This document shows, piece after piece, positions 58,864 to 60,731 of a DNA stretch of 64,000 nucleotides. Numbering within the stretch: position 1 is the first letter of the stretch; each line of letters starts with the position of its first letter. Origin of the DNA: Chloroflexota bacterium (GTDB taxonomy: Bacteria > Chloroflexota > Limnocylindria > Limnocylindrales > CSP1-4); contig CAKKPP010000005.1 in assembly GCA_919901745.1 (NCBI GenBank), positions 33,850 through 97,849 of the forward strand, read 5' to 3'. The notes below the pieces were generated by a model that had not been told where the DNA came from, searched no databases, and saw nothing but the letters and a program-made list of their open reading frames with translations. The translations under genes and the position numbers were made by a program.

Positions 58864-58893
58864 TTGACGCCGGACCCATGTGGCCGCTAGCAT
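58864..58893 (+). promoter_or_regulatory. Promoter of the SAM riboswitch transcript
   Basis: -35 TTGACG at 58864-58869, an 18-base spacer and -10 TAGCAT at 58888-58893. The riboswitch begins 21 bases later, consistent with a start near 58900. Confidence 0.65.
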
Positions 58894-58913
58894 CCATGCA
58901 CAACTGAATAGTG

Positions 58914-59016
58914 CTTATCAAGAGTGGCGGAGGGACCGGCCCGATGAAGCCACGACAACCTACCGGCGTCGCGTCGGCAAGGTGCCAATTCCGGGCAGGT
59001 CCTCCTGCGAGATAAG
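58914..59016 (+). promoter_or_regulatory. SAM-I riboswitch (S box)
   Basis: The closing P1 helix is CTTATC (58914-58919) with GATAAG (59011-59016). Inside are the conserved blocks AGAGTGGCGGAGGGAC, GGCCCGATGAAGCC, CGACAACC and AGGTGCCAATTCC, in the right order. S-adenosylmethionine binding closes P1 and allows the terminator behind it. It lies before a threonine-synthase-like gene, not a usual methionine gene. Confidence 0.95.
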
Positions 59017-59029
59017 GGAACTCCCCCGA

Positions 59030-59055
59030 GACCCTTCCGCCGGAAGGGTCTTTCC
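59030..59055 (+). terminator. Intrinsic terminator of the SAM riboswitch
   Basis: GACCCTTCC / GGAAGGGTC with a three-base loop, then TTTCC. It lies 13 bases after P1 and about 80 before the coding start, the place of an expression-platform terminator. Confidence 0.85.
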
Positions 59056-59133
59056 GTTCCCCGGTCCCGATCCTCCGTCCGCAGTGCCCTGGCGAGTGTG
59101 TCGAGCGCGTCCAGGCAGGACCAGGAGACCATC

Positions 59134-60462
59134 GTGACGACGCAGATCGAAACCCCTCCGCCGAGGAGCGTTGGCCCGGCCCCGCGCGAGGCCCCCGGTG
59201 AGGCCCGTGTTCGGCTCGCGTGCCGGCGGTGTGGCCTGCCCGTCGCCCTCGGTCCGGTGTACGTCTGCGCAGCCTGCTTCGGTCCGCTCGAGGTCGCCTA
59301 CGACCTCGACAGCCTCCGGGAGTCGATCCATGCCGACACGATCGAGGCTCGCCCGCCCGGAGTGTGGCGCTATCGAGAGTTGCTGCCGGTCGACCCACCG
59401 AGCCGCGGTCTCGCCGTCGGATCGACGCCGCTGGTCAATGGGACACGTCTCGGTGCGGCGATCGGGATCGACCGGCTCTGGCTCAAGGACGACACCCGCA
59501 ACCCGAGCCTCTCGTTCAAGGATCGACCCGTTGCCATGGCCGCCGCGGCGGTGGAGCGGTTCGGCATGGGCACACTGGCGTGCGCGTCAACGGGCAACCT
59601 CGCTGGAGCGACCGCCGCCGCGGCAGCCGCCCTCGGGATCCCCGCGTACGTGTTCATCCCCGCAGACCTGGAGCCGGCGAAGATCGATCACGCGCTGGCC
59701 TACGGCGCGACCGTTGTTCCGATCGAAGGCACCTACGACGACGTCAACCGGATCTGCCTGGAGGTCGCCGACGAGACCGGCTGGGGCTTCGTCAACATCA
59801 ACCTCCGGCCGTTCTACGCCGAGGGCAGCAAGACGCTGGCGTTCGAGATCGCCGAGTCCCTGGGCTGGCGAACGCCGGATGTGATCGTGGCGCCGATCGC
59901 CTCGGGTGCGATGTTCACCAAGCTCGCCAAGGGCTTCGATGAGCTCGCCGCCGTGGGGCTCATCGAGCGACGCCCCATCCGCCTCGTCGGCGGGCAGGCC
60001 GCCGGCTGCGCTCCGGTCGCGACGGCCTGGGAGAGCGGCAGCGACATCGTCGAGCCCGTGCGCTTCCCCGACACCATCGTCCGCTCGCTCGCGATCGGAA
60101 ATCCGGCCGATGGCGGTTATGCCGTCGAGTTGGCCCGCGGTTCGGGCGGCTCGATCGAGGCGATTCCCGACGAGGTCACCGCCGCGACGATCCGCGACGT
60201 GGCTCGCCTCGAGGGAATCTTCACCGAGACGGCCGGCGGGGTGACGGTCGCTGCGGCCGCCGCGGCCCGACGACGCGGGGTGATCGGGCCAGATGACGAG
60301 GTGGTCGCGCTGCTGACCGGAAATGGGCTCAAGACGCCCGACGCTCGGCAGTTCGGCGTCGACCCGCGCCCGCACCGGGCCGGTCCCGGCGAGCCGGGGC
60401 TCGCACCCGCACTGCCGCCGCGGTTCGGCGAGGTCCTCGCGTGGCTGGAGCAGGGCTCGTGA
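59134..60462 (+). CDS. Threonine-synthase-like PLP enzyme under SAM riboswitch control
   Basis: 442 residues from the GTG at 59134, with CAGGAG six bases upstream; GTG 59098 has no site. An N-terminal zinc ribbon (CRRCGLPV, CAACFGPLEVAYD, about 30-52) precedes a PLP fold-II domain: Lys in NPSLSFKDRPVAMAAA (about 129), ASTGNLAGATAAAAAALG, PIASGAMFTKLAKGF, LTGNGLKTPDA. Threonine synthase acts on O-phosphohomoserine with water. Here SAM control and the overlapping sulfur-carrier gene suggest that sulfide from a thiocarboxylate may replace water and give homocysteine. That is a hypothesis; ordinary threonine synthase remains possible. Confidence 0.85.
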   Translation: MTTQIETPPPRSVGPAPREAPGEARVRLACRRCGLPVALGPVYVCAACFGPLEVAYDLDSLRESIHADTIEARPPGVWRYRELLPVDPPSRGLAVGSTPLVNGTRLGAAIGIDRLWLKDDTRNPSLSFKDRPVAMAAAAVERFGMGTLACASTGNLAGATAAAAAALGIPAYVFIPADLEPAKIDHALAYGATVVPIEGTYDDVNRICLEVADETGWGFVNINLRPFYAEGSKTLAFEIAESLGWRTPDVIVAPIASGAMFTKLAKGFDELAAVGLIERRPIRLVGGQAAGCAPVATAWESGSDIVEPVRFPDTIVRSLAIGNPADGGYAVELARGSGGSIEAIPDEVTAATIRDVARLEGIFTETAGGVTVAAAAAARRRGVIGPDDEVVALLTGNGLKTPDARQFGVDPRPHRAGPGEPGLAPALPPRFGEVLAWLEQGS

Positions 60463-60731
60463 GCGCGGTGCGCATCCCACCCGTGCTGCGCACGGCGACG
60501 GGCGGCCAGAAACAGGTCGTGGCGGGTGGCGCCACCGTCGGCGAGGTGCTGCAGTCACTGGTGGCCGCGTACCCCGCCCTGGAGCAGCAACTCCTCGCGC
60601 CGGACGGGTCGTTGAACCGGTTCGTCAACGTGTTCCTCAACGACACGGACATCCGTCACCTGGACGCGCTGGCGACTCCGGTCGTCGACCGGGACACGGT
60701 TGTGCTGCTCCCCGCGATGGCCGGCGGCTGA
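60459..60731 (+). CDS. MoaD/ThiS-type ubiquitin-like sulfur carrier
   Basis: 90 residues from a GTG that overlaps the preceding stop (GTGA). The beta-grasp fold is seen in RIPPVLRTATGG, TVGEVLQSLVAAYPALEQQLL, LNRFVNVFLNDTDIRHLD and the end VVLLPAMAGG. The C-terminal Gly-Gly is exactly at the end, as needed for adenylation and thiocarboxylation. No moaE, thiG or E1 gene is next to it. Translational coupling to the PLP enzyme suggests a dedicated sulfur donor, as CysO is for CysM. Confidence 0.9.
   Translation: MSAVRIPPVLRTATGGQKQVVAGGATVGEVLQSLVAAYPALEQQLLAPDGSLNRFVNVFLNDTDIRHLDALATPVVDRDTVVLLPAMAGG

Follow-up and report, generated by a model that had tools for sequence, protein, structure and literature searches.

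The window, the whole 64,000-nucleotide stretch of DNA analysed here, contains a riboswitch-bearing leader followed by two genes on the same strand (Table 1). The leader opens with a sigma-70-like promoter sequence, of which the pattern scan found one in the leader stretch against 0.0 expected in shuffles, and continues with a SAM-I aptamer that covers the complete model and scored well above the RF00162 gathering score of 44.4 bits (its E value was computed over the window). A hairpin with a perfect stem of 10–11 bp, AGACCCTTCC-GCC-GGAAGGGTCT, was found 3′ of the aptamer. It was not recovered by a strict terminator scan because its U tract (TTTCCGTT) is weak, and a hairpin occurs at the same position in the leaders of most relatives; it is probably an intrinsic terminator. 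The full SAM-I riboswitch with promoter and terminator that the first-pass annotation had described was thus recovered, with the reservation about the U tract.

Table 1. Coordinates of the features of the operon and of the second SAM riboswitch of the genome
Feature	Position	Strand	Evidence
Sigma-70-like promoter, TTGACG-18-TAGCAT	58864..58893	+	Pattern scan; consensus match only
SAM-I riboswitch aptamer (RF00162)	58912..59018	+	74.1 bits, E 1.6e-15, model 1-108 complete
Post-aptamer hairpin	59027..59053 (approximate)	+	Fold -30.1 kcal/mol, z -2.5
metM-type gene, PLP fold-type II threonine-synthase homolog, 442 aa, GTG start	59134..60462	+	PF00291, TIGR00260
CysO/MoaD-like carrier, 90 aa, ends AMAGG, metO by position	60459..60731	+	PF02597 ThiS, 55.8 bits
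SAM riboswitch directly before metH	L035:9453-9546, contig C5		43.8 bits, just under the 44.4 cut-off

The first gene, with AGGAG upstream of its start codon, encodes a PLP enzyme of the threonine synthase family, as had been claimed. It matched PF00291 with 228 bits and the TIGR00260 thrC model with 244.7 bits, whereas cysteine synthase models gave just 39–44 bits; the match to NF006050, at 281.6 bits, was under that model's cut-off of 303. The solved structures nearest to its predicted structure (pLDDT 84) were threonine synthases. A canonical ThrC identity was nevertheless rejected. In a tree of 68 sequences, the window enzyme and 49 similar proteins were split by a 100/100 branch from 18 canonical ThrC sequences, and its clade included members from Chloroflexota, Actinomycetota, Nitrospirota, Planctomycetota, Bacillota and others. 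The two groups share the fold, the SFKDR motif of the PLP lysine and, as a likely substrate, O-phosphohomoserine, but the ThrC motifs NSVNPxRxEGQKT (more loosely, NSxNPxRxEGQKT) and PVGNAGN, which the window enzyme lacks, are altered in its group to NINLRPxYAEGSKT and PIASG. These substrate-loop differences are consistent and lie around the active site, and they are given here as differences between the motifs without residue roles.

The second gene is coupled to the first by a GTGA overlap. Its product is the MoaD/ThiS-like protein with a C-terminal Gly-Gly that had been described at this place, and its best PDB match was CysO from M. tuberculosis (3dwg, 2e-21).

Methionine and sulfur genes in the source genome

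The source genome (3.04 Mb, 44 contigs), that of a Chloroflexota bacterium near to MAGs assigned to Candidatus Limnocylindrales, is 92% complete, so gene absences are not absolute. Contig C22 carries a canonical hom-thrC-thrB operon, which is followed by an aspartokinase gene and has no SAM riboswitch. The first-pass annotation had proposed to look for such a second, riboswitch-free threonine synthase. With this operon O-phosphohomoserine is made and threonine is covered, and since this thrC is separate, the enzyme gene in the window is not the threonine supply. No metX was found in the genome (best match 23 bits), and neither metA (PF04204) nor HcyBio (PF01837, aspartate semialdehyde route), both looked for as rival routes, was found there. 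The expectation that metX, metY and metB would be missing thus held for metX, and metA is missing too, but enzymes of the PF01053 type are present: contig C31 carries CBS together with a cystathionine gamma-synthase/lyase-type enzyme (PF01053), and contig C34 carries one further PF01053 enzyme, nearest to methionine gamma-lyase. Weak PF01053 and PF00899 matches on other contigs were near or under the cut-off.

The sole other gene of the genome behind a SAM riboswitch is a full-length metH. Separate from the window operon, a MoeZ-CysO-MoeZ-CysM-Mec region on contig C3 encodes a cysteine-desulfurase-like and a NifU-like protein, two MoeZ, a second CysO-like carrier, CysM and a Mec-type JAB protease. 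Thus, all that is needed for carrier loading and release is encoded, and the search suggested earlier for an E1-like enzyme or a Mec-like hydrolase yielded both, as MoeZ and the Mec-type JAB protein. The genome's own MoaD, fused to a MoaE-like part, is on contig C18.

The two MoeZ genes (L030:7223-8449 and L030:10162-11388) are about 2.9 kb apart and identical in DNA over their last ~870 bases, the ThiF part, while the rhodanese part differs. The identical part may reflect gene conversion, a recent duplication or an assembly effect.

Relatives of the enzyme and their regulation

A literature search gave no direct paper on a threonine synthase with a MoaD/CysO carrier and a SAM riboswitch. The route had been taken to be undescribed with this enzyme family, which was wrong: according to PMC12172450, Hasebe, Adachi, Maruyama and Hamano (2024, Appl Environ Microbiol 90:e01247-24) reported MetM and MetO from Streptomyces albulus, in which a SAM riboswitch lies upstream, MetM converts O-phosphohomoserine to homocysteine and metO is the carrier gene. 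The same part of that source also places MetM homologs in cyanobacteria. The window operon resembles the S. albulus case, as far as that text describes it, in the SAM riboswitch, the threonine-synthase-like homocysteine synthase, the carrier gene and the O-phosphohomoserine precursor. It differs in belonging to another phylum and in having a carrier that groups with the family's own CysO. The likeness was compared through a proxy, the actinomycete Nonomuraea gerenzanensis, in which a SAM riboswitch, enzyme and carrier follow in the same order and the enzyme, 53.9% identical to that of the window, falls inside its clade.

A SAM riboswitch was present upstream of the enzyme gene in 25 of its 29 nearest relatives, which makes 26 of 30 once the window is counted, and in 13 of 18 more distant loci, in one of which (L122) it heads a longer gene run. 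Among 400 Chloroflexota genomes, a MetM-like gene was found in 158 and MetX in 164, and 21 genomes, the close relative G320 among them, had both. The two were anticorrelated (odds ratio 0.11, Fisher p 6e-21, with kinship ignored), and 155 of the 158 MetM-like genomes had at least two thrC-family genes. The remaining 99 of the 400 genomes had neither, which leaves other routes to homocysteine, or auxotrophs, to be expected among them. The MetX-like matches in the window's family scored ~270–290 bits, compared to 400–480 bits in most other Chloroflexota families.

The control of the gene could also be read in genome G019, where a T-box takes the place of the SAM riboswitch in the metM leader. 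Its specifier position is AUG (Met; GAA-A-AUG-A), so that in this genome a gene annotated as threonine synthase is controlled by methionine. The reading was checked internally, because a thrS T-box on the opposite strand at this locus gave ACC (Thr; GAA-A-ACC-A) by the same alignment rule. The two T-boxes, one leading to metM-metO (L060:1164-1451, + strand) and the other to thrS (L060:709-950, - strand), point away from each other on either side of a tRNA-Val gene.

Gene neighbourhoods elsewhere included the order hom-thrC-thrB-metM-metO (L097 and L107), a metH 3.5 kb from the metM start (L075) and, in Nitrospira (L132), a row of CysM, MoeB, metM, metO, a NIL protein, MoeB and a JAB protease. 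NIL proteins also figure in the other route to homocysteine, from aspartate semialdehyde. The Nitrospira row, from MoeB through the JAB protease, spans L132:3143-7263, and its metO frame extends beyond Gly-Gly (AGGTSCRM), so that this carrier may have to be trimmed, for which the JAB protease is a candidate.

Carriers beside and away from metM

Of 81 named loci, 53, from several phyla, have a carrier gene following that of the enzyme. Within the window's family, 14 MetM genomes could be compared, all with at least one CysO-type carrier. Four of them, the source genome included, have a second CysO-type carrier beside metM. The other ten have no carrier next to metM and one strong CysO-type carrier, which adjoins MoeZ and CysM in a MoeZ-CysO-CysM region that usually includes Mec.

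In the carrier trees, the adjacent carriers of the window's family grouped with Limnocylindrales CysO (100/100 and 100/98), separate from the MetO found beside MetM elsewhere and from mycobacterial CysO. These trees rest on 90 columns, and therefore carry moderate weight and bear on the carrier, not on the enzyme; the tree that included Thermus 1v8c was distorted by that long branch. Orthology of the window carrier with the MetO carriers beside MetM elsewhere was not recovered in these 90-column trees. A carrier that is not orthologous to the known MetO seems to be unreported, and its grouping suggests that the original MetO was lost in the window's family and that a CysO copy was recruited later. 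One carrier could possibly feed both CysM and MetM.

A wider scenario, to which we give slightly less than an even chance, would make carrier-dependent homocysteine synthesis by MetM a main methionine route of Chloroflexota. The Limnocylindrales would have lost MetO, with MetM using CysO, and one subgroup would then have placed a CysO copy beside metM as a new dedicated carrier, such that cysteine and homocysteine synthesis draw on a single thiocarboxylate system.

Assignment of the operon and competing readings

Given the same arrangement in Nonomuraea and the published S. albulus case, the window operon can be read as a MetM/MetO locus. On sequence evidence, we put the probability that its first gene encodes a MetM-type, O-phosphohomoserine-dependent homocysteine synthase at about 0.87. 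The proposal in the first-pass annotation that O-phosphohomoserine and sulfur are joined to give homocysteine is well supported by the separate thrC, by the failure to find metX, metA or HcyBio in the genome, and by the presence of an E1 and a Mec-type JAB protein.

From this gene set we infer the following route. The cell's ordinary homoserine kinase would supply O-phosphohomoserine, MetM would swap its phosphate for sulfur to give homocysteine, and the SAM-riboswitch-controlled MetH would methylate homocysteine to methionine. The sulfur would most likely be brought by the CysO-like carrier encoded next to metM, as a thiocarboxylate that MoeZ loads onto its C-terminal glycine, and a Mec-type JAB protease would release the product, as in cysteine synthesis by CysO, CysM and Mec. 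When SAM is plentiful, the riboswitch would turn the operon off. We consider it likely that the carrier thiocarboxylate is the physiological sulfur donor.

Two other thiocarboxylate systems were considered for the gene pair. The M. tuberculosis CysO/CysM/Mec/MoeZ system likewise pairs a CysO-like carrier with a PLP fold-type II enzyme for an O-phospho amino acid, and it too has an E1 and a JAB protease, but the window enzyme is from the threonine synthase branch and its proposed product is homocysteine, not cysteine. CysO/CysM cysteine synthesis was rejected for this operon because the partner is not of the CysM type and CysM is found elsewhere in the genome. The HcyS route of Wolinella succinogenes, reportedly described by Krishnamoorthy and Begley in 2011, is said to use a MetY-type PF01053 enzyme and O-acetylhomoserine. 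It shares with the window locus a protein thiocarboxylate as the proposed sulfur donor for homocysteine, but was rejected because the partner in the window is a threonine-synthase-type PF00291 enzyme, not a PF01053 enzyme, and no metX or metA was found in the genome.

The strongest rival concerns the sulfur source. A MetM-type homocysteine synthase could use free sulfide in the cell, and the adjacent carrier would then serve another sulfur transfer or merely boost delivery. In ten of the 14 related genomes no carrier gene stands beside that of the enzyme, which in nine of the ten is preceded by a SAM riboswitch; free sulfide or a shared CysO may therefore serve in these genomes. Na2S was used in the MetM-like assay of PMC12172450. 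We regard this as rather unlikely, since all 14 genomes keep a CysO-type carrier, the ten with MoeZ and CysM and usually Mec beside it, and since the window's lineage apparently restored the pairing of metM and a carrier by means of a CysO copy, a sign that enzyme and carrier work together.

Much less probable is that the gene encodes another threonine synthase, or an enzyme that makes both threonine and homocysteine, with SAM control simply balancing the threonine and methionine branches. Apart from the threonine synthases being the nearest solved folds, what speaks for it is Microcystis ThrC, a 51.6% homolog of MetM that makes threonine from O-phosphohomoserine in vitro and whose behaviour in the cell was not fully MetM-like (PMC12172450); some family members may thus be bifunctional. 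However, the genome has a canonical thrC in an operon of its own, the motifs of the window enzyme differ from those of ThrC, the T-box of the G019 leader specifies Met and not Thr, and the enzyme is anticorrelated with MetX. That the carrier belongs to molybdopterin or thiamine synthesis and stands beside the enzyme by chance is very improbable: it is a ThiS/MoaD-family protein, but such carriers adjoin the enzyme across several phyla, the genome has its own MoaD, and the nearest solved structure is CysO, not MoaD or ThiS.

With the MetM/MetO reading, the route of the window operon is one that has already been published, and what may be new, judging from the trees, is the grouping of its carrier with CysO. 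The apparent carrier swap is a natural test of the specificity of small sulfur carriers. Independent evidence for the MetM discovery of 2024 comes from the Met T-box and from the anticorrelation of the enzyme with metX. For lack of metX and metA, many genomes of Chloroflexota, Actinomycetota and Nitrospirota may be mistaken for those of methionine auxotrophs; in these genomes a second gene bears the annotation threonine synthase. Naming this gene MetM closes a false gap in the methionine pathway and corrects the annotation.
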